DNA of 64,000 nucleotides from positions 1 through 64,000 of the forward strand of contig CAIURC010000208.1 of NCBI GenBank assembly GCA_903901425.1. The letters are read 5' to 3'. The notes beneath the pieces were generated by a model. It made no database searches and was not told where the DNA came from. It worked only from the letters and a program-made list of their open reading frames with translations. Of this stretch, positions 31,401-54,146 are shown piece by piece. The DNA comes from an uncultured Spartobacteria bacterium. GTDB lineage: Bacteria; Verrucomicrobiota; Verrucomicrobiia; Chthoniobacterales; Chthoniobacteraceae. Position 1 is the stretch's first letter, and the number at the start of each line of letters is the position of its first letter. A program made the translations under genes and the position numbers.

Positions 31401-34400
31401 CCCTCCCAGCACCAGAGTGCCCCCGGAGGACTTATCCAAGTTCAAGGCCCCGAGATTCATGACTCCGTTTTTCATCTCTGCGAAATCGGTGAAAGTGGCC
31501 GTTCCGGGCCCCAAATTTGCGAGCGTCAGGTCGAGGTTGTTGCTCAGAGTGACGGATTTTTCGATGAGGTTGATTGCTTCGATGACCGTGCCATCGACGG
31601 TGTCAGACGAGGTCACAGCCATCCCGAGTGCCAGCGTTTTGAGCACCTCAAACTGCGCATCCGAGGTCATGAACAGTTTATCCTTGTTGCCAACGCGGGT
31701 GACGCTGGAAAAACCGGCCCCGGGTTCCGTCAACCGGTCGACGGCGCCCAGGGTCACCACGGTTCCGCGCGACCCGATGGAAAATGTGGACCGGGTCGAG
31801 TCGGGCCGGAGGGTGGTCTGACCGGCCACGCTCAGGGTATGGCCGCGTTGACCCACTACGGTGACGCTGTTCGCCCGGGCGGCGCTCCCCGCCTGGAGGG
31901 GCTCGAACCGGAGGGCATTGATCTGGGTGTTGGTTCCCGCGATTCCCGCCGTGGTGTAACGCCCCACCCGAATCTCGCGGGTGCCAACGGTATCCCCGGC
32001 CAAGGTCAGGGTGCCAAAATCAAACTGCGCTCCCGGAGCGTCATCGCTGCGGAGCTCCAAAACTGAGCCGATTCCGTTGCCGGCTGCAGAGAGGATGACC
32101 TCGCTTCCCGCCACACCCGCTGCCCCCTTGTTGCCCAGCACAAGGACACCCCGGTTGACCCGGGTGCTCCCGGTATAGGTGTTGTCGTTTCCGAGGATCA
32201 GCCCGGTGACATTGTTTGCAGCCGATACGATCAGGGATTTGTCGCCCGATGAGCCGGGCAATCTGTTCTGCTCCACGACCCCTGAAAACCGCAGGAAACT
32301 TGAGTTCCCGCCCCACCCGCCACCGACCACCAACGTGCCCGCCGTCCCGGGATTGCTGCCTTCCAGACCCACGTTGCCGGTGAACCGCAGTTCCAGCTGG
32401 GCTGTGGCAGAGTTGCTGGCGACAAAGGAGTTGGCTGTGAGGGTGCGGTTCCCGCCTCCGTTGGGAGTGACGACCGTGAGCTTTCCGAGCGTCACCACGG
32501 CCTGGTTGGCGCCCCCCAACGAATCCACGCTCAGGATCGAGTCCTCCGTCATCCGGATGTTCCGATTCCGGTACTGGTCATCCACCTCGCCAAATGCGCC
32601 GGTGGTCCTGAGGTTCAACTCGCCTCCCGCCAACTGGATGTCGCCAGTCCCGGTGCCGAGTGCGCCGTTGGTTCCCACCACCAGACGCCCATCCCGCCCC
32701 ACCCGCACCGCGCCGCCGAAGGCCTGCGTCTTCGGGATCACCACTGTCCCGCCCAGCGCACGCTGGGTGTTGTCCAAAGACCCCACCAGAAGCCCGTTGA
32801 CAGCGCCTCCGTTCAACACGTTCTCATTCTCCACGATCAAGGTCCCTCCACCGCCCCCCAGCCGGTAGGTCCCCCCGGTTCCCAAGGCGCCTAGGCCTTG
32901 AGCTCCGCCCAATTGTCCCACCAGTTTGGCCGAACTCAATGTGGCGCCGCTGAAAACACCGTTCCGGTTGGTTGCACCCAGCCAAAGATCAAAATTCCCC
33001 GCAGTGTTGGTGACATTCTGGGCAAACCGGATCCCGTCCAGAGCCAGCACGGCATTGCCCCCGGAGATCACGCCCACACCCCCCAAACCGCCCGTGGCCG
33101 ACCCACTAAATCCCACAGTGGCTCCTGTGCCTTCCTGGAAGCCCCTCCCGATGCCCAGCACCGCCGAGGAAGTGCCCGACAAAGTCAACGGCTGGCTGGC
33201 TCCCAGATTCCCGGGATTTTCCAGCGCGAGCAAAACGCGAACATTGGCGGTGCTTGCCAAAACCCCAACCTCTCCAGTGCCAAGGGTTCCATTCCCGGCG
33301 ACCCGGACAGAGCCCTCCACCACATCCAGTCCAGCGGCAAACGTATTGACTCCCGTCAGGATCAGTTCCCCTGCACCCACCTTCCGGAAACCTCCGTTGT
33401 CGATGGTTCCGGAAACCCAGTGCTGGGTCCCCGCAACGTTGAGGATTCTTCCCGGATTGAGACCATCTGCGCCATCCCCCCCGCCAAAGTCGATTCCGCC
33501 CGCCAGTTCCAAGCCGGCCCCCAAACCCGCCCGGCTCAAATTCAAATCGGAAAGTGCGCCGGAGAAAACCACCCGGTTGTTGACTCTCACGGGGCTTCCT
33601 TGAAAGGAGCTCAGCGTGACGGTCTGCTTGGATGCGGTGGCCGGATCCAGATTATCCACAAACAGCAGCCCCGTGCCGAGAGCCCCCGCGGCCACATCCA
33701 GAGAACCGCCGCGCAGGTAGGTGCCGCCCGAATAGCTGTTGGCTCCCGTCAAAACCAGCACTCCTGCCCCGTCCTTGGCCAGCGCGCCGCGCCCCCCCGA
33801 ACCGTCCACCACCGCACCGGAGAGCGTCATGTAGCCGTTGGCCGAAAACACCGAGACCGCCCTGGTGCCTCCCGCCAGATCGATCTGTCCGGAGAGGGTC
33901 AACCTTCCCGTGCCCACATTGTCCCCGAGTTGAAGGCCCCCGTTCAAACGGAAATTGTTGGGAATAATCCGGGCCGTGGAATCCGTGGAAGCCAATCCGA
34001 GCACGGCATCGGCGGTGTGAATCACAACCAATCCGCCCCGGGTTCTGGATCCATTGGCCCCCACCGTCACCAAGCCGGTGCCCAGAGACTGCCCCCCAGC
34101 CAACCGCACCATGCCTTCGTTCAGGAACGTCCCTCCAGAATAGGTGTTGGTCGCGTTGCCCATGATCAGCAAGCCGGGTCCGGACTTGAGCAGCGTCACG
34201 GCTCCGGTGCCGTTGTTTTCCACCAGCGCGTTCACCCGCAGTTCAATGGCGGTGCTGAAATTGGCCAGATTGATCTCCCCCGCGGTGTTGTCATTCGGGC
34301 CGCCTGCGGTCAGCACCCCTCTGCTGGCTCCGTCCCGCCCCAGAACCAGACCCAGAGCCTGGGTGGTGTTCATCACGCCTCCCAGAGTTCCCAGCCTAAG

Positions 34401-36365
34401 TTTCTTGCCCGCAAAATCCACATACGCCGAGTCGTTGGCTCCCCCCCCCAAGCCGGTCGCCTGCACCAGCGTGTTGAGGTTGGTCACCGCCGCCCCCAGC
34501 GTCACGTCGCCGCCTGTCCCAAGCGCCTTGATCCGATAGTTTCCAGCCGGTGCGTTGGCCATCCCATCCCCATAGCTCACCGACGTGTACACGGGCGCCT
34601 GAATCACACCAGTCCCAGATACCGAGGCCCAATCCTGCGTCTGGTTGCCGTCCTGATCGAGACGCTCCAGAATCGCGTAACCGCCCAGAATCCCATTCGA
34701 ATTGGTGGTCGTCGTCTTGACCACAAACGAACCAGATGCCCCCGGACCACTGAACTCCAGAGTTCCACCCGGATTTCTGGTGATGCCTCCCAGGGAAATT
34801 TCATAACTCCCATTCGAATCCCCCACCAGGCGCGAACGCCCGCCGCCCAGTGTCAGACCCGCAAAATTCTGGACGATCGCTCCGGTCGCGTTCGAAAAAG
34901 CCAGTGCCCCCCCAGACAACTCCAAGGCTCCGCCATTGGAAAGGACACGGGTTCCGGTCGAAATCCCCGACGCATCGAACTCCAAGCCCCCACCCCGCAC
35001 CGCGGTCAACCCCGTGTATCCATGCGCAGCGCCGGGCGTCGAAACCCAGACCCCATTTCCCGTTTTCACCAGAGACGTCTTCCCGGAAACTGACGGGTTG
35101 TTCAGGATCGGGAAAAAAAAGTGGGGGCTAAAACCTGACAAACCCGGATTCGCCGCATTCAGCACCAACGTCCGGTCTACGCTTCCGGGAACCGCCACCG
35201 CAGCGGTGGATGAAAACCGGATCGAATCGGGAATCCCGTACCCGGCCTCAATCTGGCCGCCCGCAGCGGCCAGAGTGAAGTTTCGCTTCATTTCGCTGTC
35301 CCGGTACGAGGTACCCAGAAAGATTCGGAGCGCACCTCCGTTGAGCACCAGGTTCTGAGCTTGATCATCTGTGGAACCCAGATTGCCCGCTTCAGCCGGG
35401 GTTCCGAATGTCGTGGGATCCCCCACGCCGCTGGTCAGATCCCCCACGACCAACCGCCCCCCCCGGATCTCCGTCGATCCCGAGTACCAGTTGTTGCCCC
35501 GGAGGATCCACGTCGAATCCCCTTCCTTGACCAGACTGGTTGCACCCAAGCGGGTACTCCCCGAAACATTGTCTCCGATGGATCCTTCGAACAGGTTTCC
35601 CACCAGATTTCTACCATCCGCACCATCCGCATAGCTACCGCCCAGCGTGAGGGTCCGATTGCCAGCCCCGGTCACTGAAACATTCTGCCTCACGGCTAGG
35701 GAACCGGTCCCGGACGCCTCCACGCGCCCCCCGGCATTGGTCAAGGTCAGAGGCACATTCAAAAGCCCCCCCCGGGAGCCTTCGCCGGTTCCTGAGTAGC
35801 GGAGAGTGCCGCCCGCGAGGGAGATACTGGTTGCCGTGGACACACTGCGGAGATCCTCAAATGCCAGAGTCGTGGAGGCGCCAACACTCAGCGTGCCTGT
35901 CAGGGAGTTCACCCCAGTGAGCACCAGGGTCCCGCCCCCGGAAACCGTCATCCCGGCACTGCCCGCCACCCTCGCATCCAGAGCGGCCTGAAACCCGCTC
36001 CCTACCGTCACCGTTGCCGGCCCCGAGAGCGTCAGCACACCCGGGCCGCCCACCCGGTACCCGGTCGCGTTAAACACCAAACCGGTGGCACTCACCCCGC
36101 CAGTCCCAATGTCCAAAGAGGGAAAACTGCTCACCCCGAAAATCGCAAGATCCCCGTTCATCCATGCGCCGCCCGACCAGTTCGGCACCGTCAAATCCCA
36201 GCGCCCTGTCGCGCCGGAACTGCCCCCGGACCATGTTCTGTCCGCCGCCTGCATCTGGCCACTGGCCATGGCCAGTGCAATGCCCAAGGAAAGAACCGAT
36301 CCACAGCGTCCCAGAGACTCGCTCAGGGGGACCGGGCGGAAACCTACGGAAGAACTCAGTTTCAT
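22437..36365 (-). CDS. Giant (4642 aa) secreted beta-strand-repeat protein with C-terminal PEP-CTERM sorting signal
   Basis: Signal-like N-terminus; very many units of the type LTKxGxGxLxLSGxNTYxGxTxVxxGxLxxG (autotransporter-associated beta-strand repeat); C-terminus VPVPEPSTWLLSGLGGMLLGLRNRRR. Confidence 0.93.
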   Translation of the reverse strand: MKLSSSVGFRPVPLSESLGRCGSVLSLGIALAMASGQMQAADRTWSGGSSGATGRWDLTVPNWSGGAWMNGDLAIFGVSSFPSLDIGTGGVSATGLVFNATGYRVGGPGVLTLSGPATVTVGSGFQAALDARVAGSAGMTVSGGGTLVLTGVNSLTGTLSVGASTTLAFEDLRSVSTATSISLAGGTLRYSGTGEGSRGGLLNVPLTLTNAGGRVEASGTGSLAVRQNVSVTGAGNRTLTLGGSYADGADGRNLVGNLFEGSIGDNVSGSTRLGATSLVKEGDSTWILRGNNWYSGSTEIRGGRLVVGDLTSGVGDPTTFGTPAEAGNLGSTDDQAQNLVLNGGALRIFLGTSYRDSEMKRNFTLAAAGGQIEAGYGIPDSIRFSSTAAVAVPGSVDRTLVLNAANPGLSGFSPHFFFPILNNPSVSGKTSLVKTGNGVWVSTPGAAHGYTGLTAVRGGGLEFDASGISTGTRVLSNGGALELSGGALAFSNATGAIVQNFAGLTLGGGRSRLVGDSNGSYEISLGGITRNPGGTLEFSGPGASGSFVVKTTTTNSNGILGGYAILERLDQDGNQTQDWASVSGTGVIQAPVYTSVSYGDGMANAPAGNYRIKALGTGGDVTLGAAVTNLNTLVQATGLGGGANDSAYVDFAGKKLRLGTLGGVMNTTQALGLVLGRDGASRGVLTAGGPNDNTAGEINLANFSTAIELRVNALVENNGTGAVTLLKSGPGLLIMGNATNTYSGGTFLNEGMVRLAGGQSLGTGLVTVGANGSRTRGGLVVIHTADAVLGLASTDSTARIIPNNFRLNGGLQLGDNVGTGRLTLSGQIDLAGGTRAVSVFSANGYMTLSGAVVDGSGGRGALAKDGAGVLVLTGANSYSGGTYLRGGSLDVAAGALGTGLLFVDNLDPATASKQTVTLSSFQGSPVRVNNRVVFSGALSDLNLSRAGLGAGLELAGGIDFGGGDGADGLNPGRILNVAGTQHWVSGTIDNGGFRKVGAGELILTGVNTFAAGLDVVEGSVRVAGNGTLGTGEVGVLASTANVRVLLALENPGNLGASQPLTLSGTSSAVLGIGRGFQEGTGATVGFSGSATGGLGGVGVISGGNAVLALDGIRFAQNVTNTAGNFDLWLGATNRNGVFSGATLSSAKLVGQLGGAQGLGALGTGGTYRLGGGGGTLIVENENVLNGGAVNGLLVGSLDNTQRALGGTVVIPKTQAFGGAVRVGRDGRLVVGTNGALGTGTGDIQLAGGELNLRTTGAFGEVDDQYRNRNIRMTEDSILSVDSLGGANQAVVTLGKLTVVTPNGGGNRTLTANSFVASNSATAQLELRFTGNVGLEGSNPGTAGTLVVGGGWGGNSSFLRFSGVVEQNRLPGSSGDKSLIVSAANNVTGLILGNDNTYTGSTRVNRGVLVLGNKGAAGVAGSEVILSAAGNGIGSVLELRSDDAPGAQFDFGTLTLAGDTVGTREIRVGRYTTAGIAGTNTQINALRFEPLQAGSAARANSVTVVGQRGHTLSVAGQTTLRPDSTRSTFSIGSRGTVVTLGAVDRLTEPGAGFSSVTRVGNKDKLFMTSDAQFEVLKTLALGMAVTSSDTVDGTVIEAINLIEKSVTLSNNLDLTLANLGPGTATFTDFAEMKNGVMNLGALNLDKSSGGTLVLGGTGALDAVSVSGGSLVIRGNSSLGTSSAGVTVNSSASAALLMTGGGTLSRNLTVAAGSTGTQAIGGITSGGLVGGTGGGRTFSGTLTLGRGVTLLGAGDGDVIFSGAISESAAGQAVTVGATTGGVFGGVVGGPAPLAGVVRLTANNTFTGALTVNNGTLIGTAQTGTGGPFGSGSNLTLNGATVRLEGLDGSSSGSNNGILSYGGGNRIMVVDSATDSVSTRFAVGSLTRSGSGTLTLIPENIDFGVVTAQAPSGDARFTVASTPTATNGILSPSVVMTATGVGATDADFVANNVNSLVRATYSVTDVNTGTSTSVINSGAATLTAERSAYALRLNGTLNLGTNPFNLGSAAGVSPVPSIAGLILNGGAGITGTGALRLGTSEAAVYVAGTSAIPVNIEGRFPIPTQLSAFTKFGPGQLTLSGINTYRGATTVNEGELVLGSATALPIYTYSGAIVSTALSIGNAATVTLNGNSVELSGLTGDFGSVLNMGSSTVTVRNSANMVYSGRLAGTAGSTLRKLGTGSLTLDNTRTGTAGNSVDRIFVDQGTLRVYGTDGGNGAPVASQGSVTGTNIILRGGILEFFATGDNSGSLQRVVAGNNITVGNGNGQLIVERLTPSDSNKVLELGSLTLGQNQLYARNNGAGAFLPKFTGTTTLNGSAYIGNDIDLTLEGPIGDGGIGYSINKFNGASLLINSPSNSYSGGTVVHTGYLLFGTRGGDPVTQAGNTFVPSGEAKAGTGDIFLMQTGRVRLNDTTNLNPGQMVRVLGGSISGTPLFDIQTDKPLEQYNLSAIGSGALALGTGARGDSNRAPVGLYTQPLDLGRIGDGTWGLSATQDTVYMPSTLGAGAGNRYRFFGRSDAFLILNGENVLTGGNGLELGRPLAPVAVTQDNTFALVRLDQNQNYTGSTLIYRASNRGGSNTLLQVRGSLATSGIENYGRFELTGGGRLTEAQALNYTARPGSTLRLDYVDDLPGGFFAPTGAGAGNAGAFTNKWADTVAMRLDGSQLNMVNASNVQTLETIGGLSYGGGSEILLERRGNNAQPVVLINGALTRIGLGTLAFRTNVNNELGAAGLPGTANAQRVILANPGANAALNRGLVNGTTVNMVSPQFFNLGQMTFIDYDPAAGLGFSNAAFRSVNNATFNSGGLSNGTEIVLQSPTGVNSVIAGADVWALRSDVSISDAENDSIRIRSGGLAASNTGGSPTISVPLIFGSAAAPVEASIWTNTGNQSLILSGALTAQNLTRNGPGRLILSGANPNLTGIAQVNGGVLDVRGGGAVSALSEIRLHGAYLNNDGTHIMPRLELRNDSAASFAPRITLAEGLPYAEIAVDRAATAGTDVTMTVAGLTVEGGGAAGTALLFQNGNDYNLTVQGPAVFGLPGRTAPIGLNIQNNNGTNQITLARQVSGPALLSKNGNGPIRFLNMSNTAGTPSFGMGANSLSGGLTVNEGELQFATLGTVSAAGVTNSANSPVISGLASTANLFPGMQVTGTNVPANAYILSVDSATQVTLSAAPTLAITAPTFASIQNLRLAATNTASSSVLTLPSTAGLYAGMSVANIPGGSGIPGATTIRSVDSPTQITLSAAATVANVNALFLGLASAPMSGTGPVVINRGVLRTLSDTSFFNPLSSSSLTFAGPSILALNRAGTTANNLTHTLGGDTSVLSFINNSFVRIQNDGGVAVNGIWNGSTRLEARSLLRSDVGLFQLGNGLGGDVIHGTGFLDKTGFGTLVLNSNAANTFSGGLNVYQGLVRAGTVNDTFGTGAVRVFPGGAISVNPSFPNALAAGGLSSFAYNSSALAILGIRNGAVGTGIDSITKVNQILGSTAFGPTGQGGVLAGDNSTGGMFNWLNGSDLSTLGNGYWFVGALTSNTDIGGTTAILPGAADPGTSSRVYRFGGGGANVYFNPGSTATVLTDVTGGTPAISRLLVGKPNAYFGTGAVYFNGNVNNTYTGGTTVSRVRDVDGNFTVAQLGIQGGYANSPLGTGAVAVYGNLSFENNGSATSNSPVNGSTNRNAYTFHPGSRLIFENNVAYVNPTGNTNARWADGVGITLRSSGVEIVGSNANNTYNSETVGALSFEGGSEIRSSKRGAFWSELVIGGNLTRVGNGTLTLVHDSANLGVAGVANANRVRVTGTAPAMSNGMVSPFMISRSDNQFLKYDATNGFQVVTQTSSPANYVARADTTPLSGALSANLTNGTGILSYDSGSGVVLGANLDLWALRTQGDISAANPDGAFSRIGIRSGGLTIYGGTARTISADLFFGNMTAVPPTPVEALVHASSQNLTLNGQFTASAFTKFGTSSVTLNQDQLSFTGPWNLNQGQLIVQTPGGLGQGGANNAVFLNGWTGNTGQTFTELRLNFNPGTPEELVFTSGKITALDQNLIRVTSTADRVSRISALDLRSTTAAAAELAIPGNLWFIVDGARSRLNTGAITLFSDYNLHVDAGSYDQAGVTTGVRPDSISNQGLYNLSKTGDGRLYLGNNPGLTGSRRFTISEGSVRVEHSGALGDASMTTVVENGGALAVGVAGFQQAGTLQMQPGSIERWSVRGARATNYNLPAGVHLQIEADQTQTATYGLNGGSIMGYVPVDIDTALVVNTVGPNVSFTLLSDSSLGQPYPAGIQQYYGVGTHKFYDMGKANFAASPANPVMQGGYLKVMGNITGTGSQTLTKIGQDVVQLAGNNTGFNVAVREGLLQLGSSTALPSTGSLTMRGNGVLDLSGNNATVSSLNGDSAAAQILNSTVGRNTLSVQSGTYDGSLKGNINLVKQGAGTLRLNSSDTSFNGTTSVTGGTLQVANSLSATTAVSVTGAGARLEFVGAAGNSDRINNFAAVVLGAGGRLVTNGFSEGSSAPGQGAGMGMLTLQSGAEIDFGNGALGSTLLFEGLTFADGTSVIISNWTGKAQTDDGATGNDRLLFRTAPGFSESFLRNVQFQKDDGTNYALGATMVGYNGYVELVPVPEPSTWLLSGLGGMLLGLRNRRRVSELLAQWRG

Positions 36366-36555: not shown

Positions 36556-36723
36556 CTATTCGTCCGCTGAACCGCGCCGCCCGGCGAGCAACTCACTTAG
36601 ACGCCGCCGGTTCCGCAACCCGAGCAGCATCCCGCCCAGACCACTCAGCAGCCATGTGGACGGCTCGGGCACTGGCACCAGTTCCACGTACCCGTTGTCC
36701 GCCGAGGATGAAAAACGGGCCAT
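36556..36723 (-). pseudogene. 55-aa orphan PEP-CTERM tail micro-ORF (duplicate of the giant protein's C-terminus)
   Basis: Translates as MARFSSSADNGYVELVPVPEPSTWLLSGLGGMLLGLRNRRRLSELLAGRRGSADE*. 36587-36698 is nearly identical to 22456-22567. Confidence 0.75.
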
Positions 36724-36746
36724 CCCGAAAATCTGCAGGAGGCCGT

Positions 36747-37850
36747 TTAACGGAGCACCAAATCCACCACTTCACCGGGACGGACCCGCATTCCCGCCGG
36801 GAGGCTCACCTCGATCGGCAACCCGAGCTCCAGCCCCGCCTCCGGGGTCCCCCCCGCCGCAGGCATCCAGGCCATGCCAACCCGCGGCGCACGAGGCATA
36901 ACCGACTCAAATCCCACCCCCACGTTCCTGACTTGCCCCTCTCCCCTCTGCCGCAGCGGGGTGCGGGTGCGGACTTCCACACTCATTCCCACCTTGGGCT
37001 CCACGGGAAGGGGCTGTTTGAGGTAACCCACGATTTTATCCGAGTGCCCCGCCTCAATCCGCAGGATGGTTTCCCCTGCCAGGACGTTCTCCCCGCGCAA
37101 CCGGGTCAACTCGACCACCATGCCGTCCATCGGAGCCACCAAGCTGGAGAGGCCCAAGTTTTTCTCAATCGCCAGCATCCGGGACCGCTGCACCCGAAGC
37201 AGATCCGCCAAGGGATCGTTGCCCTCCTGAGCCGGAGGAACTTCAGGAGTTTTGAGCGTTTCAAGCTCGCGACCGAGCTCGGTAACCAAATTTTCGCGTT
37301 CCTGAACCTCAGCCGAAAACCCGTCTCTGGCTTTTAAGCGGGATTCGAAGACGCGGCCGGTAATGGCGTTCGTTTCGAGGAGTTTTTCTGCGCGTTCAAG
37401 GTCACTGGCCGCGAACTGAAGGTTGATCCGCGCGGAGACGAGATCGACTTTCTGCTGGAGCCAGGAGAGGCGGAGTTTCTGGTAATCCACGGCGGCGCGC
37501 CTAGCTTCGGCCAGGGGATCCAAACCGGTCTGCTGCAGGGCCAGTTGATTGCGCATGAACTCGAGTTCGGCCCGTGAATCCTCAGGGCGAACCATGCCCA
37601 GCACGGTGCCCTGCTTGACCCACTGGAACCGTTCCACCGAGAGTTCCACCAAGCTGCCCGTGGCGGTGCTGACCACCCGCGCGGACACCGGCTCCACGAC
37701 ACCGGTCAGGACGGCAGGACTCACCGCGCTGCTCCACAGATGCACCACGCCGGCCACCGCAGCAGCGACCCCGAGCAGGGGGAGCAACCGCATCCGGAAC
37801 TCCCGGATTCTTTCCTTGAGGGGAATTGGAATGGGTTCGTAGTGCGGCAT
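36747..37850 (-). CDS. HlyD/membrane-fusion-like (biotinyl-lipoyl) protein
   Basis: One N-terminal TM, ARVVSTATGSLVELSVERFQWVKQGTVLGMV lipoyl half, long coiled coil, SSLVAPMDGMVVELTRLRGENVLAGETILRIE second half. Confidence 0.87.
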   Translation of the reverse strand: MPHYEPIPIPLKERIREFRMRLLPLLGVAAAVAGVVHLWSSAVSPAVLTGVVEPVSARVVSTATGSLVELSVERFQWVKQGTVLGMVRPEDSRAELEFMRNQLALQQTGLDPLAEARRAAVDYQKLRLSWLQQKVDLVSARINLQFAASDLERAEKLLETNAITGRVFESRLKARDGFSAEVQERENLVTELGRELETLKTPEVPPAQEGNDPLADLLRVQRSRMLAIEKNLGLSSLVAPMDGMVVELTRLRGENVLAGETILRIEAGHSDKIVGYLKQPLPVEPKVGMSVEVRTRTPLRQRGEGQVRNVGVGFESVMPRAPRVGMAWMPAAGGTPEAGLELGLPIEVSLPAGMRVRPGEVVDLVLR

Positions 37851-38536
37851 CAGGGTTCCTCCTCCTCTTTTGCCACCACGCTGGTGGCCCGCAGCACCCC
37901 TGGAAAGGCCCTCAATTCCGCCAGAAGATCCCCAGACCGATCCGGATCCCTCAACATGAGCCGGTAGGAGAGCTCGGCGCCCGGTTTACCCTCATGAAAC
38001 CGCTGGCTGGCACACTGGCTCTCCCGCGCGTGTCTCCGAAGCAGCAGGCCCAGTTCCGACAACTCCTCAGCCGTCCGATCCCACTGGATGTTGACAATCA
38101 AACCGTAGCGCAGGCGAGTTCCAAACGCACTGATGGAGAGGTAGCCCAGCACACCAGCAAGGATGGCGCACCCCACCACCGCGGTGGAGAACCGCTGCGC
38201 GCCACAGGCCATTCCCAGAATGATGACCCCCAGCACGTAAGCCGTGTCTAGAGTGTCCCTGAGCACGTTCCGGAACCGGACGATTGCCAGGATGGCCATG
38301 AGACCGAAAGCCGTGACCAGATTGTTGGACAACACCATCAGGACAAGCGCCACCAACATGGGCATCACGACCAGAGACTTCACAAAAGAGCGGGAATAGG
38401 AGATCCCCGAGTGGGTGGCCATGTACACCCAGGAGATGACGTGTCCGCACACAAACGCCAACAACAGAGCCAGCGCGACCAGCCGGTAATCCACCGGCGT
38501 CAGAACGTAGTCTCCTCTTAAAAACCAGTCTGGCAT
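37850..38536 (-). CDS. DUF4956 membrane protein
   Basis: Several TM segments and SFVKSLVVMPMLVALVLMVLSNNLVTAFGLMAILAIVRFRNVLRDTLDTAYVLGVIILGMACGA, recognised as DUF4956-like; 1-bp overlap with the HlyD-like gene. Confidence 0.85.
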   Translation of the reverse strand: MPDWFLRGDYVLTPVDYRLVALALLLAFVCGHVISWVYMATHSGISYSRSFVKSLVVMPMLVALVLMVLSNNLVTAFGLMAILAIVRFRNVLRDTLDTAYVLGVIILGMACGAQRFSTAVVGCAILAGVLGYLSISAFGTRLRYGLIVNIQWDRTAEELSELGLLLRRHARESQCASQRFHEGKPGAELSYRLMLRDPDRSGDLLAELRAFPGVLRATSVVAKEEEEP

Positions 38537-38539
38537 TCC

Positions 38540-39316
38540 CTAAATCTCCTCCGACTCATTTCCGCTCCAAGCAGTTTCTTCCACGCCGCCCGATCGGAAG
38601 TGCTTCTCGCCCCGTTGCCGGATTCCACCGGCATACTTGGCCCCACCCGACCGACTCAGGTTGAAGGAACGCACCAGATCGCGCATCCAATCCGGGAACC
38701 TGTTGAGAAACTTCAACTCCAGCACGACGTCCTGCCCGAAAACCACCACGGGATCTTTCATCCACGTCTTTGGCACAGGCTCGAAATACGGTTCGGATCG
38801 CACGTGGCGGTCCATGGTCACCCGAAAACTGTTGTTTTCAGTACTCACCCACGCCTCGCGTCGGTAAGCCACATGACTCTTGGGTTTGGCCCCCAAAGTT
38901 TGCATCAGCCCGTAAAAATCCTCCAAGCTTCTCCAGTCTTTCTCGCCTGAAACCAGCGCACTTTCAGGCAGTTGCCCCCCCAGAAAGGGCGCAATTTCGC
39001 TCTTGGGCAACCGGCACCTCGATTTCCGGATCACCTCGTTGAACCGCCTCTTCACCTCGACAAACACCGGGCTTTTCTCCGAGTCGTCGTAGTAACGCAC
39101 CCGCAGCTTGAACCGGTCTTTCTCCCCCTTGACGGTCGCCTCGTACGTGTCAAGCGCATCGGAGTCCAGATAGATGTTGTGGATGTCGTACGAGAAATCC
39201 TCCCCGGCAAACTCGTCCAATTCCAAGTAGGGCCGCACGTAATCCCGCACCTCAGTTGCGAGGGATTCGGGGATCAGGTACTTGATCTCAAAGCGTTGCG
39301 CCTGAAGCTCAGGCAT
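38540..39316 (-). CDS. VTC-domain polyphosphate polymerase-like protein
   Basis: RFEIKYLIPESLA, YDIHNIYLDSDALDTYEA, RFKLRVRYYDDSEKSPVFVEVKRRFNEVIRKSRC, HVAYRREAWVS, FRVTMDRHV, VVLELKFLNRFPDWM. Confidence 0.9.
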   Translation of the reverse strand: MPELQAQRFEIKYLIPESLATEVRDYVRPYLELDEFAGEDFSYDIHNIYLDSDALDTYEATVKGEKDRFKLRVRYYDDSEKSPVFVEVKRRFNEVIRKSRCRLPKSEIAPFLGGQLPESALVSGEKDWRSLEDFYGLMQTLGAKPKSHVAYRREAWVSTENNSFRVTMDRHVRSEPYFEPVPKTWMKDPVVVFGQDVVLELKFLNRFPDWMRDLVRSFNLSRSGGAKYAGGIRQRGEKHFRSGGVEETAWSGNESEEI

Positions 39317-39634
39317 ACTCGCCTCCCCTCTGGTGAGCGCCCAGAAAGCGGTCTGGGACTCCGGGAACCCTGAAAACCAAAGGCATCTTGTCACGCGATA
39401 CGAAAGCTTCTCTCTCGGAGAATTTTCTGAGACAAGTGTGCGGGTTCTTCATTCGGTTACAAACGTGTGACATTCTGGACTCTGAGGCGCCGACCGCCAA
39501 GCTTTCTGTGCATTTCCCGTAACTTTTTTGCCATTTCTAAGCCTGCCAAAGGACGGAACACCGACGAACTCCCCCGAGACCCCGGTTGGAACCCTCCTTG
39601 ACCTACAGGTGATCAACTCTTTATCCCTTCTGCA

Positions 39635-42600
39635 ATGTTTAATTTTCGCCACCTTTGCACCCAGACTCTTCCGCGTCTGTCGGTAGTTCTCCGTGCTTTT
39701 TTCTTTCTCCTCGCCGCCGATTGCCCCACCCGCGCCCAGTCCGCGACCGCTCACCGGGCTTTCATCACGGAATTTGCCGCCTCCAACAGCACGTTTCTGG
39801 ACGAGGACGGGGATCCCTCAGACTGGCTCGAGCTGCACAATCCCGGTGCATCGCCTCTGGTCCTGACAGGCTGGTTTCTTTCGGATGACCCGGCCCAACC
39901 GAGAAAGTGGCGGTTCCCGGAAACGGTGCTGCCTGCGGGCGACTTTTTGGTCATTTGGGCCTCGGGCAAGGACCGTCGGGCAGCCGGCTTGCCCCTGCAC
40001 ACCAATTTTTCGCTCTCAGGGACCGGGGAATCCCTGATTTTGAGCCGGCAGGACGGATCGGTTTCGCACCAGTTTCTCAATTACCCAGCCCTTGGAACCA
40101 CGGTCTCGTACGGGATGCAATTTGAGTCTGCTCGGTGGACTCCAGACCCGCTCCGCGGCGTGTACCGGGTTCCCCTGGGGCCGACACCGCGTTGGTTCGG
40201 ATCGGATTTTCCGGCCGGAGGTTGGCCCTCGTTTACGGGCCATCAAGGGTTCGGTCCCGCCGCGGTGCAACCGGGGATGCGCCTCAGGCAGGTGGGCGCG
40301 GCTCCGGGATTCGGGGAGGTCAACACTCTGGCCCGCTGTGACGCACTTTTGGCGCTTTCTGGGGACAGTCCCCTGATTGCCGTTCAGGCCACGGAAACGG
40401 TTTCCTCGGTGAACTACGGGGGATCCCATTACCCCGGCGACACCCTGCTACCCACGCCAGCCACCGATTTTTACGCAGTCCAAGCCACCGGGATGGTTCT
40501 GATCCCCACTGCAGGCACGTATTCTTTTGGACTGAACTCGGATGACGGCGGCCGGATCCGGATCGACGGGCAGGATGTGATGGTGGACGACTCCCTGCAC
40601 GGGGAGCAGGACCACATCGGGACGGTGACTCTGAGCGCCGGCTACCACGCGTTTGAAATGGTGATGTTTGAAAATGGCGGGGGCGATCTGGTCGAGTTTT
40701 ATGCCGCTCCCGGGGTTCACACTGAGTGGTCCGCGGCCATGAAACTGGTGGGGGACACGGTAAACGGCGGCCTTGCCACCGTCTTGGCATCGCCTTCCAA
40801 CGGCCTGACCGAAGCCGCCATGCGCGGCATCCAAGCGTCCTGCTATTTCCGGGTCGCGGTTCAACCGGCCTCCAGACCTGCCCTTCAGTCGCTGTCCACC
40901 CTCCGGCTTCATGTCCGGTACGATGACGGATTTGCGGCGTTCCTGAACGGCACCCGGGTGGCTTCCCAGAACGCGCCGCCCGCGCTCACGCACGCCTCCA
41001 CCGCCACCGCTCCGCACCTGCTCTCAGCGGATGCTCCATTCGAGGCGCACAACCTCACCCCCTTTCTTCCCCTGGTGCGCTCCTCGGGCAATGTTCTCGC
41101 GCTCCAAGGACTCAACGTCAGTGCCGGGGACGCCAGTTTCTTTCTGGATGCCGAGATGGTGGCGGGCCGGCTCCTGGTGGACGCTCCGCCGGTGGCGTTT
41201 GAAAACGGGCAGCGCACCCCGGGCACGGTGAACTCCCCGCAGACCGCGGTTCTGGGCAGCGCTCCCGTGCTTCTGAGCGTGCCAGCAGGCTACTACACGC
41301 AGCCATTTACGCTCACCCTGCAAAGCCCGACTCCGGGCAGCACCATCCGATACACGCTGGATGGCTCCACGCCGACCGCCACCTCCGGCACCGTGTATTC
41401 CAGACCACTGACGGTCGCCAAAACCTCCGTGCTCCGGTCAGCGGCATTCCGTGCGGGAAGCGCGGCCTCGGCCGTCACCACGGCCACCTACTTTTTCATG
41501 GACGACGTCCTGACCCAGTCCCCGACGGGGGCCAAACCCAGCCCGGCATGGCCGGCGGTAAACAACGGCCAACATTTCATCCGCTACGGGATGAGCCCGC
41601 TGATCGTCAACTCCACCGACCCCGAAATTGGCGGCAGAGCCAAGGTCCGTGAGGGGTTGCTCAGCCTGCCCGCGGTTTCTTTGGTCACGGATCTCCCCAA
41701 CTTCTTCGACTCCGAGACGGGCATCCTATTTAATCCCAACGGAAGAGGCAGCCAGTGGGAACGGCCCTGCTCGATGGAGTTTCTTTCACCTCCTGGAACT
41801 AACCGCCCCAACGGCTCCCAGGAGTTCCAAATTGACTGCGGCGCGCGCACCCGGGGCGGATTCAGCCGCGACCCCTCCAATCCCAAGCACGGCTTCCACA
41901 TGTTTTTCCGGAGCCGGTATGGCGCAGCCAAACTGGAGTACCCGCTTTTCGGGGAATCGGGCGCGCAAACGTTCGACCAGATCGATCTGCGGACTGCCCA
42001 GAACTATTCCTGGTCGTTTGGCGGGGATCTCAACAATTCGTTTCTTCGCGAGGAATCCTCCCGGCGCGCCCAGTTGGCGATGGGGCAACCGGCCTCGCAC
42101 GTGCGCTATTTCCACCTCTTCATCAACGGCCACTACTGGGGCCTTTTCAACTTTGACGAACGCAAGGAAGCCAGTTTTGGAGCGACCTATTTCGGCGGCA
42201 ATAAAGAGGAGTACGACGTCATCAAGTGCGAACAGAGCGAGGGGTACGTCACGGGCATCACCGATGGCCAGATTGACGCCTGGCGCGACCTTTGGGAAAA
42301 AGGTCGGGCCCACGCAGCAACCCCCTCCAACGCGGCGTATTTCAGCCTGATGGGCCTCCAAGCCGACGGAACCACCCCTTCCACGGATCCCGTCCTGCTG
42401 GATGTGGACAACCTCATCGATTACCTGCTGCTCACTTTCTGGACCGGCAACGAGGATGGATGCACCTCCGCCTTCCTCGGAAATGGCACTGCCAACAACT
42501 GGTTCGGACTCCGGAACCGGAACAGCACAGCCGGTTTCCGTTTTTTTGCACACGACTTCGAACACAGCCTCGGCCTGCCCAGCGGCTCCGCAGGAGTGGA

Positions 42601-45600
42601 CCGGACCGGACCTTTCGAGTCGGAAAACCAAGCCGTTTTTGAACTCTCCAACCCCTACTTCCTCCATCTGGATCTGCTTCCCAACCCCGAGTATCGGATC
42701 CGCTGGGCGGACCGCGTCCAGAAACACCTCTTCGGAACCGGGGCGTTGTCGACCGCCTCATGGACGAACCGGATTCAAACGCTGGCTGCGGAGATCAACT
42801 CCGCCATCACTGCGGAGTCGGCGCGCTGGGGAGGGGCAAAAACCCAAACCCCGCTCAATCGAATTCACTGGCTCGACTCCAAAAACTGGATCCTCAACAC
42901 CTTTATCCCGGCCCGACACGACATCGTTCTGGCTCAACTGCGCAAACCCGAGCTCGGCCTTTTTCCGCAGACTGACGCCCCCCAACTCTCCCCTTCCGGT
43001 GGCCGGGTGGCACCCGGAACACCCCTGAACGTCCTCTCGACCTCCACCGTGTACCGGATGCCGGACGGGAGCGACCCCCGGGCCATCGGAGGCGGCATCC
43101 GCCCCGGCGCAATCGCCTCGCCGCCCTCGACCGGATCCACCCAGACTCCGGTGGCCTTCGGGTCCCAGTGGCGCTATCTGGACACGGGCATGGATCAGGG
43201 CAGCGCATGGCGCACCGCGGGCTTTGATGATTCTGCATGGGCCCTGGGCAACGGCGAACTCGGCTACGGCGACGGGGATGAAACCACCGTTGTCCAAGGC
43301 GGCCCTGCCGATGCCCGACACGCCACCGCCTATTTCCGACGCACATTTTCGCTCGCCGGGGTGTCTGGAATTGTTTCCGCCACCGTCTCCCTCAAGTACG
43401 ATGACGAGGCATGGGTATACCTCAACGGACAGTTGGTGCACAAAACCACCGCCGGACTGCCCGACAACCCCAGGTTTGACGCCTACACCGGGACCGGAAA
43501 TGAGAACACCACAGCGACGTTCACAATTGATCCGGCACTTTTGCTGGAGGGCAGCAATCTTCTGGCCGTCGAAGTCCACCAAGGCAACGCCACCAGCTCG
43601 GACCTGAGTTTCGATCTGCAACTCCAAACCGGCACCGCTTCCGAAGGAACCTCCATCCTTGCCAGTGCCACCCCCGGAATTCAGACCCTCCGGCTCCGCG
43701 CCCTCAACGATTCCACAAACGAGTGGAGCGCACTGACTGAAACCACGCTTCTCGTCGGAGTCGAATCCCCCGCCCCAGGCTCCCTGGCCATCGCAGAACT
43801 CCTCTACGCACCCGCCCCCCCCACAGAGGCCGAAAAAAACGCCGGCTTCCGAAACGCATCGGACTTTGAATTTGTCCTGCTCCAAAACGTGAGTGCCAGC
43901 CACTTGGATTTGGCGGGAGTCCGGCTCGACAAGGCAGTGGAATTCACACTGACCGAGCAGTCCCCGCACCGAGTCCTGGCCCCTGGCGGACTACTCGTTG
44001 TGGCGGCCAACCCGGCGGCATTCGTGGCGCGCTCAGGCAGCGCCATCCCAGTGACGGGCCCCTTCAAGGGCAATCTTGCCAATGAGGGGGACCATCTCCG
44101 CGTTTTGTTTGGCTCCAGCCTCATCACCCAACTTTCCTACACCGCGGGCGGATTGTGGCCCCGGATTCCCGACGGTTCAGGCCATAGCTTGGTCCGGGCG
44201 CAACCCACCTCGCAGCCAGGCTCGGGGTCCACCCCGGGAGAATGGTTTGTGAGTTACCGCAGGGGCGGCGATTTCCAGCAGACGCCCCCCCCACAGGGTT
44301 CCATCCAGCTTGGAACCGCCTCCCTCGAAACCGTTGAAGCACCAGGAACGGTCCAAGTCCCCGTGTTACGCACCGGGCCGCTGAATACACCCGCCTCCGT
44401 CCAGTTCACCACGCAGCCCGGTTCGGCAATCGCCGGCAGCGATTTCACCGCCACCTCCGGCACGCTCTCGTTTCCCGTCGGGTCTGCCTCCAGCTCAGTG
44501 AATGTCACGATCTCTGGGGATACGCTCCACGAGGCGACGGAATCGTTCACCGTTGAACTTGCCAATCCGACGGGCGCTATCGCGGGCGCCCCGCTTTCAA
44601 CCGTGGTCCGGATCTTGGACGACGACTCCACCGCAGCACCTGCCAACGACCGCTTTGCTCAGGCCCAACCCATCGCCGGTTCCTCAGGCACGGTTGCCGG
44701 CTCCAATCTGAGTGCCACCCGGGAAACCGGTGAACCCCTCCATGGAGGCCCGGGCAGCACCTCCATCTGGTTCCGCTGGACCGCCCCAGCCAATGGAACC
44801 GTCCAGTTCCGCACTGCCGGCAGCGCCAACCCCGACGGTTCGCCCATGGACACCCTCCTGGCGGCATACACCGGCACCCGCCTCAACGCCCTGGTCCCCA
44901 TCGCCTCCAACCACGACGCAGCGCCCGGAGATCCCACCAGTTCCCTCCAATTCGCCGCATGCAAAGGCGACTCCTACCTGATCGCAGTCGATGGCGCCTT
45001 CGGTGCCGCCGGCACCGTTCTCCTCGATTGGAACAGCCCGAACGCCAAGTTCGAGTTCCGGTCCCCGACGTTCTCGGCACGGGAAGGGCGTCCCAGCGCC
45101 TCCGTGGAAGTCGTTCGCTCAGGCAACACTTCCAGCGCGGCGTCCGTTTCTGTTTCCACCGCATCGGACTCCGCCGCAGCCGGATCGGATTTCACCACCA
45201 CCAGTGTCCTGCTCGAGTTCCTTCCCGGACAACGGTCGATCCAAGTCGAGATCCCGCTTTTGGATGACACCGAACAGGAGGGACCCGAGTCTTTTCTGGT
45301 TTCGCTGCAGAACCCGTCCGCAGGCCATTCCCTGGGCCTCATCTCCAACGCCGCCGTCCAGATCTCGGATGACGAGGATGCACCCGCCCAGGATCACTTT
45401 GCGCTCGCTTCCACGCTCAGCGGGGAATCCGGTTCGGTTACGGTCAATAACGCCGGTGCAACGCTCGAGTCGGGCGAACCGGTCCATGGTCCGGATGGCG
45501 GCCGCTCGGTCTGGTTTGTCTGGACGGCTCCCCGGAACGGCCGCGCGACCTTTGAAACCATGGGGAGCCTGACTCCGGGCGGGATGCCTCTGGACACCCT

Positions 45601-47854
45601 GCTGGCCGTCTACACCGACACCGCGCTCGATGCGCTCGAGGTGGTGAACCGCAACGACAACGCGCCGCTGACTCCCACCAGCCGCGTCCAGTTCACGGCA
45701 AAATCCGGCCAGACCTATCGGATCGCCATCGACGACCGGGCCGGAGGCGGCACCGTGCTCCTCACATGGTCCCTTGTGGATTCCGACACCCTGCTTGAGT
45801 CGATCCCGGGCCTGCCCGCGCCATTTCTGGAAGTGACCGAGTCTTACTCGGAATCCCTTGCCGGTTCGATCGCCAGTGGGTTCACCGTGCAGCCAAGCCA
45901 GAAGCTGGTGGCGACCCTCAAGGCCCCCATGGGCAGCCTGACCCCGGCCTTCCTCACCCCAGAGGCGCCTTTTGAGATTCGGCTGGGCGATGTGCAATTC
46001 TCCGGAACGCTGGGCATGGACCCCGTGTTTTCCGCGTCCAAAACCAGCGCCAGAATTCCGCTGCTCCATTCGGACAACCAGCGGGCAGGCACGCTTCTGC
46101 TCTCGTGGACCAAAACCCAACTGACTCTGGTGCTGACCGTGGAGCATCCCGAACTGCTCTTTGAGGCCGGCGATCATTTCGGCCCCACGGGACCGTTTTC
46201 CGGACAGGTCGGTGCCTCTCAGGTCCGGTTCAGCATCGCGAATTTTGTGGCCAGCCGAAGGTTGTATTTTTCTGGAAACACCACGCGCACCCAACTCACC
46301 CGTGGCACCAGCAACTTCACCCTCCACGCGGTCTCCCTCCGGGCCAGCCCAGATCTTTCAGGGCCTTCCATCGCGTTACAAAGACCGCTGCCACCCGCCA
46401 GAACCACCGCTGCCACCGTCTCGATCGCCGGGACCATCTCGGATGCGCGCGGCGTCACTGACGCGCAACTGCTCCTGAACGGGTCGGTTTTTCCGACCCT
46501 GACCCTTGCCCCGGCGCTCCCGGCCAACAGCCTCAGCTTCAACGCCGCAAATTGCCCGCTGCAACCGGGCAAAAACACGCTGGAACTCCGCGCCACGGAC
46601 CGGGACAGCAATGTCTCCGTTTCAAAACGGGAGATCACCCGGTCGGTTCTCACGCCTGTCACTATCACCAGTCAGGGCTCAGGCAGCATTGCCGGAAAAC
46701 CCAGCGGCACTCTGCTGGAGATCCAATCCTCAGCCTCGTGGACCGCTTCCCCGGCGGCAGGCTGGCTTTTTGACCGCTGGAGCGGCTCCGTGGACAGCAC
46801 TTCCCCCACCCTGACGGCCGTCATCACGGAAAATTTCCTGCTCCAAGCCAACTTTGTTCCCAACCCGTTCCCGGCGGATTCCGGCTCGTACAGCGGCCTG
46901 ATTCGTTCCGGCGCCTCTGCGCCTGCTGGGTCCATGAGCGTCACCTTGAGTTCCTTGGGAGCGCTGACTGGAAAACTCATCCTTGCCTCGGGAACGGTCC
47001 AGTTCAAGGGATCGGTGCGTCCGGATGGCCTTTTTACCATCTCCATTCCAAGAAAGGGGCTTCCCCCGCTCTCTCTGAGACTCCAGTTCGCGCTTCGAGG
47101 ATCCGGCCAGGTCTCTGGCACTGTCTCAGACACCCTGACCGTTCTCCGCATCGATGCGGAACAGGATGCCACGTTCGCAACACCCCCGGAATCCGCGGGC
47201 GCCTACTCGGTGCTGTTCCAACCAGGTGTTCCAGCCTTCCCGGGCCACGGTTTTGCCGCTGGAACAGTCAGTTCCAAGGGGCGGATGACCCTTGCCGGCA
47301 GCCTCCCCGACGGGACCAAGTTCTCCGCAGGCGGGCAACTTTCCCGGGATTTCCTTTTCACATTTCTGACGGGACTCTCCAAACCCGCCGGGCAACTCAC
47401 CGGATTTCTTTCCCTACAAACTCCCTCCATGGGTGGAGATTGGACCTGGTCACGTGCTGCAGTGGGGAGCGTTTCTGGATTCACTGTTTCCGCCGAAACA
47501 ACGGTTCGCCGTTACCAGCCTCCAGCCGCCAACACCCGGCTCCTGGACGCGCTCAACGCCGCCAACGGCGCGGCTGTGCTCGCATTCTCCAGCACCGCCC
47601 TCGGCACCCATTCCCGCCCGTTCGTACTCGATGTGAAAAACAAGGCCGCGTTTTCCCCAACATCTCCCTCCCGGGCGGTCAGCCTCTCCTTTTCAACCGC
47701 TTCCGGAGTCTTTACGGGCTCGTTCCAGGATCCCGTTTCGGGTGCCAATCACTCGTTCTCGGGAATCGTGGATCAGGTGGCCGGGACTGGAGCCGGTTTT
47801 TTCCTCGGGCCGCAAGGCCCGGGCACGCTCACACTGGCGCCGGCAGCGGACTAG
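39635..47854 (+). CDS. 2739-aa secreted CotH-kinase mosaic protein (LTD, PA14-like, chitobiase-C-like, CotH, Calx-beta, PPC-like modules)
   Basis: ITEFAASNSTFLDEDGDPSDWLELHNPG (LTD), YSFGLNSDDGGRIRIDG (PA14-like), IRYTLDGSTPTATSGTVYS, CotH motifs LIDYLLLTFWTGNEDG...NNWFGLRN...GFRFFAHDFEHSLG, two Calx-beta units. Confidence 0.9.
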   Translation: MFNFRHLCTQTLPRLSVVLRAFFFLLAADCPTRAQSATAHRAFITEFAASNSTFLDEDGDPSDWLELHNPGASPLVLTGWFLSDDPAQPRKWRFPETVLPAGDFLVIWASGKDRRAAGLPLHTNFSLSGTGESLILSRQDGSVSHQFLNYPALGTTVSYGMQFESARWTPDPLRGVYRVPLGPTPRWFGSDFPAGGWPSFTGHQGFGPAAVQPGMRLRQVGAAPGFGEVNTLARCDALLALSGDSPLIAVQATETVSSVNYGGSHYPGDTLLPTPATDFYAVQATGMVLIPTAGTYSFGLNSDDGGRIRIDGQDVMVDDSLHGEQDHIGTVTLSAGYHAFEMVMFENGGGDLVEFYAAPGVHTEWSAAMKLVGDTVNGGLATVLASPSNGLTEAAMRGIQASCYFRVAVQPASRPALQSLSTLRLHVRYDDGFAAFLNGTRVASQNAPPALTHASTATAPHLLSADAPFEAHNLTPFLPLVRSSGNVLALQGLNVSAGDASFFLDAEMVAGRLLVDAPPVAFENGQRTPGTVNSPQTAVLGSAPVLLSVPAGYYTQPFTLTLQSPTPGSTIRYTLDGSTPTATSGTVYSRPLTVAKTSVLRSAAFRAGSAASAVTTATYFFMDDVLTQSPTGAKPSPAWPAVNNGQHFIRYGMSPLIVNSTDPEIGGRAKVREGLLSLPAVSLVTDLPNFFDSETGILFNPNGRGSQWERPCSMEFLSPPGTNRPNGSQEFQIDCGARTRGGFSRDPSNPKHGFHMFFRSRYGAAKLEYPLFGESGAQTFDQIDLRTAQNYSWSFGGDLNNSFLREESSRRAQLAMGQPASHVRYFHLFINGHYWGLFNFDERKEASFGATYFGGNKEEYDVIKCEQSEGYVTGITDGQIDAWRDLWEKGRAHAATPSNAAYFSLMGLQADGTTPSTDPVLLDVDNLIDYLLLTFWTGNEDGCTSAFLGNGTANNWFGLRNRNSTAGFRFFAHDFEHSLGLPSGSAGVDRTGPFESENQAVFELSNPYFLHLDLLPNPEYRIRWADRVQKHLFGTGALSTASWTNRIQTLAAEINSAITAESARWGGAKTQTPLNRIHWLDSKNWILNTFIPARHDIVLAQLRKPELGLFPQTDAPQLSPSGGRVAPGTPLNVLSTSTVYRMPDGSDPRAIGGGIRPGAIASPPSTGSTQTPVAFGSQWRYLDTGMDQGSAWRTAGFDDSAWALGNGELGYGDGDETTVVQGGPADARHATAYFRRTFSLAGVSGIVSATVSLKYDDEAWVYLNGQLVHKTTAGLPDNPRFDAYTGTGNENTTATFTIDPALLLEGSNLLAVEVHQGNATSSDLSFDLQLQTGTASEGTSILASATPGIQTLRLRALNDSTNEWSALTETTLLVGVESPAPGSLAIAELLYAPAPPTEAEKNAGFRNASDFEFVLLQNVSASHLDLAGVRLDKAVEFTLTEQSPHRVLAPGGLLVVAANPAAFVARSGSAIPVTGPFKGNLANEGDHLRVLFGSSLITQLSYTAGGLWPRIPDGSGHSLVRAQPTSQPGSGSTPGEWFVSYRRGGDFQQTPPPQGSIQLGTASLETVEAPGTVQVPVLRTGPLNTPASVQFTTQPGSAIAGSDFTATSGTLSFPVGSASSSVNVTISGDTLHEATESFTVELANPTGAIAGAPLSTVVRILDDDSTAAPANDRFAQAQPIAGSSGTVAGSNLSATRETGEPLHGGPGSTSIWFRWTAPANGTVQFRTAGSANPDGSPMDTLLAAYTGTRLNALVPIASNHDAAPGDPTSSLQFAACKGDSYLIAVDGAFGAAGTVLLDWNSPNAKFEFRSPTFSAREGRPSASVEVVRSGNTSSAASVSVSTASDSAAAGSDFTTTSVLLEFLPGQRSIQVEIPLLDDTEQEGPESFLVSLQNPSAGHSLGLISNAAVQISDDEDAPAQDHFALASTLSGESGSVTVNNAGATLESGEPVHGPDGGRSVWFVWTAPRNGRATFETMGSLTPGGMPLDTLLAVYTDTALDALEVVNRNDNAPLTPTSRVQFTAKSGQTYRIAIDDRAGGGTVLLTWSLVDSDTLLESIPGLPAPFLEVTESYSESLAGSIASGFTVQPSQKLVATLKAPMGSLTPAFLTPEAPFEIRLGDVQFSGTLGMDPVFSASKTSARIPLLHSDNQRAGTLLLSWTKTQLTLVLTVEHPELLFEAGDHFGPTGPFSGQVGASQVRFSIANFVASRRLYFSGNTTRTQLTRGTSNFTLHAVSLRASPDLSGPSIALQRPLPPARTTAATVSIAGTISDARGVTDAQLLLNGSVFPTLTLAPALPANSLSFNAANCPLQPGKNTLELRATDRDSNVSVSKREITRSVLTPVTITSQGSGSIAGKPSGTLLEIQSSASWTASPAAGWLFDRWSGSVDSTSPTLTAVITENFLLQANFVPNPFPADSGSYSGLIRSGASAPAGSMSVTLSSLGALTGKLILASGTVQFKGSVRPDGLFTISIPRKGLPPLSLRLQFALRGSGQVSGTVSDTLTVLRIDAEQDATFATPPESAGAYSVLFQPGVPAFPGHGFAAGTVSSKGRMTLAGSLPDGTKFSAGGQLSRDFLFTFLTGLSKPAGQLTGFLSLQTPSMGGDWTWSRAAVGSVSGFTVSAETTVRRYQPPAANTRLLDALNAANGAAVLAFSSTALGTHSRPFVLDVKNKAAFSPTSPSRAVSLSFSTASGVFTGSFQDPVSGANHSFSGIVDQVAGTGAGFFLGPQGPGTLTLAPAAD

Positions 47855-47902
47855 CCGTGCTTTTTTCTCCACTCCGTTGCGGAGACGGCTAGGGTGACGT
47901 CC

Positions 47903-52341: not shown

Positions 52342-52345
52342 ACCC

Positions 52346-53664: not shown

Positions 53665-54030
53665 TCAATCCCCGGAATACTCGTGCGCCTTCAGAACCTC
53701 CAACTCCACAAACTCAAGAGCCGAAACGTGCGTGGCCTCCAGGACCACAGGCGGCGCGAATCCCGCCACCCGGGCCTCCTCCCAGCGGCTCACACAGAGG
53801 CACCATCCGTCCCCGGGCTTGAGCCCGGGGAACCCGTATTCGGGCCTTGGCGTGACCAAGTCGTTGCCGCGCTTCTGGGAAAACTCCAGAAACTCCCGGG
53901 TAACGCGGGCACAAACAGTGTGCAACCCGGTGTCCCCCGGGCCGGTGCGGCAGTAGCCGTCCCGGTAAAATCCAGTCACCGGGTTTTGGCAACAGCAGGA
54001 GAGGGCGGATCCCAGAACATTTGTGCGCAC
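53665..54030 (-). CDS. DUF2237 family protein
   Basis: MRTNVLGSALSCCCQNPVTGFYRDGYCRTGPGDTGLHTVCARVTREFLEFSQKRGNDLVTPRPEYGFPGLKPGDGWCLCVSRWEEA. Confidence 0.87.
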   Translation of the reverse strand: MRTNVLGSALSCCCQNPVTGFYRDGYCRTGPGDTGLHTVCARVTREFLEFSQKRGNDLVTPRPEYGFPGLKPGDGWCLCVSRWEEARVAGFAPPVVLEATHVSALEFVELEVLKAHEYSGD

Positions 54031-54146
54031 CCCGCTTTTCTAACGCGAGTGCCCCGGACTTTTCCAGAGGACATTCTTTCCCCCGACCGTTTTGCCATCT
54101 TTACTGCGTCCACAATTCCTCCGGCCGAAAGGTCCACCGCCATTTC

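Follow-up and report, generated by a model that had tools for sequence, protein, structure and literature searches.

A CotH protein, a polyphosphate polymerase and a DUF4956 protein, with DUF4832 as a further component, form a Pel-associated module in streptococci, clostridia and bifidobacteria (PMC7112168). In S. intermedius it comprises SIR_1592-1594, SIR_1592 being described as membrane helices plus an ACT domain, and the trio has been reported as not found outside Pel loci (PMC12345266). In an older Clostridium perfringens locus, NELoc-2, VTC genes likewise adjoin those for a membrane protein and for CotH (PMC2879425), so that the trio itself is already known. In eukaryotes, the VTC complex (Vtc1/Vtc3/Vtc4) synthesises polyphosphate and, coupled to this, translocates it across a membrane (PMC9911596), and CotH of B. 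subtilis is a protein kinase (PMC7821199). Here we analyse a locus carrying the same three families in a stretch of 64,000 nucleotides from an uncultured Spartobacteria bacterium (contig CAIURC010000208.1), hereafter the window, in which the VTC and DUF4956 genes are joined by a gene for a HlyD-like adaptor and face a gene for a predicted secreted CotH protein. This linkage is conserved in Verrucomicrobiota, and its composition suggests that the operon may couple polyphosphate synthesis to export.

Family assignments for the window proteins are based on Pfam domain searches. The VTC-domain gene, coding for a candidate polyphosphate polymerase (38540..39316, minus strand; VTC 1.7e-38), likely starts at the ATG at 39316, giving a protein of 258 aa, with a longer GTG alternative at 39394. 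Its stop at 38540 lies 3 bp before the ATG (38536) of the DUF4956 gene (37850..38536, minus strand; 1.4e-10), which encodes a candidate membrane partner or channel of VTC and whose end overlaps by 1 bp, at 37850, the start of the HlyD-like periplasmic adaptor gene (36747..37850, minus strand; HlyD_3 5.7e-5). These three genes constitute a tight operon, and the gene for the CotH mosaic protein (39635..47854, plus strand; 2739 aa) is divergent from it across an intergenic region of 318 bp (39317..39634), in which a simple consensus scan found no promoter-like site above shuffled sequences. An earlier note on this DNA had read the gene identities, order, strands and spacing in the same way, including the 318 bp between VTC and CotH, and had erred in placing the end of the HlyD gene at 36556 instead of 36747. 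As in the Pel module, the three families are contiguous, with CotH divergent here, DUF4956 combines membrane helices with an ACT-like domain and CotH is secreted by prediction; unlike in that module, a HlyD-like adaptor gene follows DUF4956 (with TolC or Porin_O_P in relatives), the hosts are diderm and CotH, encoded on the opposite strand, is a giant mosaic with LTD and Calx-beta domains. No Pel-like domain was found in the part of the window open reading frames that was scanned with Pfam, and the trio recurs in many of the loci described below with no recurrent pel-like genes by neighbour clustering, in contrast to the published failure to find it outside Pel loci. NELoc-2 differs in belonging to a monoderm, in having no HlyD or OEP gene, in adjoining a chitin-synthase-like glycosyltransferase and in the annotation of its membrane partner as tubulin/FtsZ.

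A survey of 291 Verrucomicrobiota genomes showed that VTC and DUF4956 form a near-obligate pair, in the manner of a soluble enzyme and the membrane protein it works with: each was found in 60 genomes, 59 carrying both, one and one carrying either alone and 230 carrying neither (P ~1e-59). Profiles built for this analysis were run on regions of at most 20 kb surrounding 70 VTC genes, and DUF4956 adjoins VTC in 66 of these loci, while a HlyD-like adaptor gene is present in 35, together with a TolC-family OEP gene in 23 of the 35. HlyD is therefore the usual third gene of Verrucomicrobiota VTC operons, generally with a TolC-family gene next to it, and for this reason we read the operon primarily as machinery for synthesis and export, and as a protein modification system only in the second place; the idea that HlyD was an addition particular to the window version does not hold. 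CotH occurs without HlyD in 23 loci, and a Porin_O_P gene in six, all of them lacking HlyD. Porin_O_P is present in 2-5 copies in each of these six porin-type genomes, five of which belong to one family, and in all six one copy stands at VTC; Pfam confirmed the family of three locus porins and of four OEPs. Four VTC loci showed none of these partners within the limits used, two of them being at contig ends and one having DUF4956 about 3 kb away. In Pontiella sulfatireligans F21(T) (L161) the genes are consecutive in the order CotH-VTC-DUF4956-HlyD-OEP. The HlyD-OEP form was also seen in a genome labelled Treponema sp. (L129), for which mis-binning is possible; in the order of that genome, 48 of 296 genomes had a VTC match above the cut-off, and among 20 loci read, 19 had DUF4956 next to VTC. 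The conserved linkage of VTC, DUF4956 and CotH, which the earlier note had mentioned for other bacteria, was thus recovered both at this locus and across the 291 genomes.

Several individual loci depart from the common layout. In the only genome with DUF4956 but without VTC, a DUF4956 gene of higher score (9.3e-35) immediately follows a CotH gene (G240:C59:95340-96975), a possible VTC-free CotH-DUF4956 pair. One genome (L080, G158) carries two complete VTC-DUF4956-CotH sets in back-to-back arrangement with about 6 kb between them, and in another locus the gene between DUF4956 and CotH codes for a membrane-anchored protein of 374 aa that matches TPR weakly (L033:6798-7919, minus strand). DUF2490 is a family that we take to be a predicted outer-membrane barrel. 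In Bacteroides thetaiotaomicron, BT3498 (DUF4956) and BT3499 (DUF2490) are listed neighbours with a common iron response (PMC10434189).

The best PDB match of the VTC profile was the yeast Vtc4 structure 3g3q (1.3e-25), and R98, R100 and E226 of the window protein align with Vtc4 R264, R266 and E426, the residues mutated to inactivate the yeast enzyme (PMC9911596). Furthermore, all columns invariant in 37 Verrucomicrobiota VTCs are kept (E36, K38, R98, R100, Y102, E113, K115, K124, R179, D195, E226, K228 and K253), in line with the intact motif noticed earlier, and the protein is probably a polyphosphate polymerase that would use ATP. It shares with the eukaryotic complex a homologous catalytic tunnel domain and pairing with a membrane component, and differs from it in that Pfam found no SPX or VTC-type transmembrane domain in the window proteins, in that DUF4956 is the partner and in that the proposed destination is extracellular rather than vacuolar. 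PPK1 is encoded elsewhere in the window genome, which rules out VTC as the sole polyphosphate maker of the cell and makes storage polyphosphate independent of VTC. The AlphaFold2 model of the DUF4956 protein (pLDDT 88.8) consists of membrane helices and a C-terminal alpha/beta domain, in agreement with the description of SIR_1592; PDB fold matches of this domain, at weak E-values, were ACT domains, including the MgtC C-domain 2lqj. Against the sequences of solved structures, DUF4956 gave as its sole match a designed protein (E 0.29). The model of the HlyD-like protein (pLDDT 87.9) has an N-terminal membrane helix, a lipoyl/barrel-sandwich part, a long alpha-hairpin and a beta-barrel, and its best fold matches were EmrA (4tko, 9.3e-18), EmrAB-TolC and MacA, so that by predicted fold it is an EmrA/MacA-type periplasmic adaptor. 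The frequent adjacency of an OEP gene in relatives is a further likeness to EmrA and MacA working with TolC; in contrast to those systems, the operon has no EmrB, MacB or RND pump, and DUF4956 is the proposed inner-membrane partner.

The CotH protein is a mosaic in which Pfam recognised LTD, PA14, CHB_HEX_C_1, CotH, a second LTD and Calx-beta repeats, preceded by an N-terminal stretch that resembles a signal peptide as judged by eye. Its kinase domain (aa 798-1082, 42026..42880, plus strand; CotH 3.3e-17) is homologous to that of the Bacillus spore-coat kinase (PDB 5jd9/5jda; alignment to 5jd9, 1.3e-38), from which it differs in being set within a multi-domain secreted protein. D941 (42455-42457) and D974 (42554-42556) align with the aspartates of the NFDG and WDYD motifs in 5jd9; we take these as D228 and D251 of B. 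subtilis CotH because the 23-residue spacing fits (PMC7821199). The catalytic site looks intact, as first proposed; the description of this CotH as divergent is supported by its Pfam score but not by its AHDxEHS motif, which recurs in other VTC-adjacent Verrucomicrobiota CotHs. We describe the protein as a candidate secreted kinase, which possibly uses polyphosphate or responds to it.

The link between CotH and VTC also holds at the genome level. With presence defined as a match at E<=1e-12, CotH was found in 55 of 60 genomes with VTC versus 20 of 231 without it (odds ratio 116), compared to an odds ratio of 4.4 for the control family PATR, and counting genera, which removes relatedness only partly, gave 38/5/9/101 (P 7e-22). 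CotH was near 9 of the 35 HlyD-type loci versus 0.8 expected from its copy number. A tree of 78 CotH domains placed the window CotH with those of L158 (a metagenome-assembled genome), L176 (an Opitutia metagenome-assembled genome) and L161 (Pontiella) with support of 99/87, all three standing at VTC operons in other lineages, while the two nearest paralogues from the window genome fall outside this cluster. The L176 protein, 36% identical to the window CotH over 1056 aa, is likewise encoded divergently from its VTC operon. The grouping of VTC-linked orthologues, together with the roughly tenfold excess of CotH at HlyD-type loci, led us to reject the idea that the window CotH is merely one of nine copies placed there by chance. 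The window genome holds nine CotH matches (including loci L201-L207), most of them in large open frames, and one of the nine lies on the same contig about 40 kb past the window CotH (G000:C208:87262-88233).

Because the VTC-DUF4956 pair is followed by envelope components of unrelated kinds, a product leaving the cell is the best explanation of these operons. We give about even chances to a system in which ATP drives polyphosphate synthesis, synthesis is coupled to export and the polymer acts outside the cell, where secreted CotH kinases might draw on it as phosphoryl source. In the cytosol, VTC would polymerise phosphate taken from ATP, and DUF4956, in place of the eukaryotic VTC transmembrane pore, would move the chain across the inner membrane as it grows. 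The HlyD-like adaptor would then guide the chain across the periplasm to an outer-membrane protein of TolC type; most relatives have a gene for such a protein adjoining the operon, and in the window genome such genes lie elsewhere. Once outside, polyphosphate would serve the secreted CotH proteins, its use as phosphoryl donor by an extracellular CotH kinase without ATP being the most speculative step. The full form of this proposal, a dedicated polyphosphate secretion system made of VTC, a DUF4956 translocase and either HlyD-TolC or an OprO/OprP-like porin depending on the lineage, feeding CotH kinases as an ATP substitute, we regard as doubtful. In this regard, OprP and OprO of P. aeruginosa conduct phosphate and pyrophosphate (PMC9769906).

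Several observations weigh against export of polyphosphate. No solved channel was found among the fold matches of the DUF4956 membrane part, and no OEP/TolC-like or porin gene adjoins the operon in the window or in several close relatives; 18 OEP domain matches are present elsewhere in the window genome, and one of these proteins could serve the operon, as with unlinked tolC. The Porin_O_P family is a broad one, and the members at VTC loci may merely import phosphate. In S. intermedius, an aggregation phenotype was reported for deletion of the DUF4956 or the CotH gene but not for deletion of the VTC gene (PMC12345266). Additionally, the surveyed genomes are not independent, which makes the co-occurrence P values too small, PATR too is weakly associated with VTC, 20 genomes carry CotH without VTC, and VTC-linked CotH copies are over-sampled in the tree, which is hence supportive rather than conclusive. 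A scan of named genomes, which speaks for the export reading, gave DUF4956 in 79, HlyD in 76, OEP in 64 and CotH in 15 of 80 loci, nearly all from Verrucomicrobiota/Kiritimatiellae, but it was seeded with HlyD-type VTCs, so that these shares are biased towards that form.

Other explanations account for part of these data. The locus could serve cytosolic phosphate homeostasis, with VTC making internal polyphosphate or binding triphosphates, an MgtC-like DUF4956 regulating phosphate or ATP, and HlyD/OEP and CotH being co-regulated for separate work. The ACT-like fold and a match of the Pontiella homologue, alone among the homologues, to Pfam MgtC (0.0015, below the cut-off) fit this explanation, as do the published resemblance of DUF4956 to MgtC and the discussion of MgtC proteins as regulators of phosphate metabolism (PMC12345266). 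We consider it unlikely, since the genome already has PPK1, outer-membrane partners of two unrelated kinds, OEP and Porin_O_P, are repeatedly found next to VTC-DUF4956 and a secreted CotH tracks VTC. Export of another polymer or of a protein through HlyD/OEP, for instance a polysaccharide as in Pel loci, with polyphosphate or CotH modifying or regulating the product, seems distinctly improbable to us: pel genes do adjoin the trio in streptococci, clostridia and bifidobacteria (PMC7112168), and Pel levels change when the gene for DUF4956 or CotH is lost (PMC12345266), but neighbour clustering at 69 loci, based on rough gene calls, found no recurrent glycosyltransferase or other polymerase, and no such domain was found in the window genes scanned.

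Phosphorylation of surface proteins by CotH, with VTC, DUF4956 and HlyD as helpers and a giant PEP-CTERM protein as substrate, had been suggested in the earlier note, which also named polyphosphorylation of such proteins as a possibility. The protein kinase activity of B. subtilis CotH (PMC7821199), the D228/D251 equivalents and the linkage of CotH to VTC all favour it. The proposed substrate is a PATR-repeat PEP-CTERM exoprotein of 4642 aa (22437..36365, minus strand, as the operon; PATR 2.1e-52, PEP-CTERM 1.5e-5), separated from the HlyD gene by 381 bp with no listed gene between; a scan recognised no terminator above shuffled sequences in this interval, so co-transcription is possible. However, a giant PEP-CTERM gene is not recurrent at VTC loci and is absent behind HlyD in the closest checkable VTC relatives, and PATR proteins occur in 151 of the 291 genomes. 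For these reasons the giant was rejected as part of the system and is judged an unrelated neighbour of the operon. Protein phosphorylation alone would not need a polymerase and HlyD/TolC, and half of the surveyed VTC operons have HlyD, not CotH, as third gene, which leaves this explanation quite unlikely.

Beyond the locus, a gene for a DUF7133/HEAT/cytochrome c protein (47894-51220, plus strand) begins 39 bp past the CotH stop and may share its transcript, another DUF7133 protein is encoded at 16556-19894, and a protein with HAMP and adenylate/guanylate cyclase domains (54021-55874, plus strand) lies between PQQ-propeller genes (52301-53578 and 56926-58206). A search of plasmids for annotated neighbours gave three distant matches, with no useful annotation.

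With preprints and most subscription papers outside the search, no description of HlyD/TolC or porin versions of the VTC-DUF4956 locus was found in the literature. Extracellular polyphosphate is discussed as a signal, though no bacterial secretion machine for its export was found described, and a search for polyphosphate as donor of secreted kinases returned nothing on point; the ATP source for coat phosphorylation in B. subtilis has been called unanswered (PMC7821199). Export of polyphosphate by these operons can be tested in Pontiella sulfatireligans F21(T), which is a cultured bacterium. If it is true, one conserved operon would explain both polyphosphate secretion and the action of secreted CotH kinases without ATP, and it would also account for the recurrence of VTC, DUF4956 and CotH together in the Pel biofilm loci of Gram-positive bacteria.

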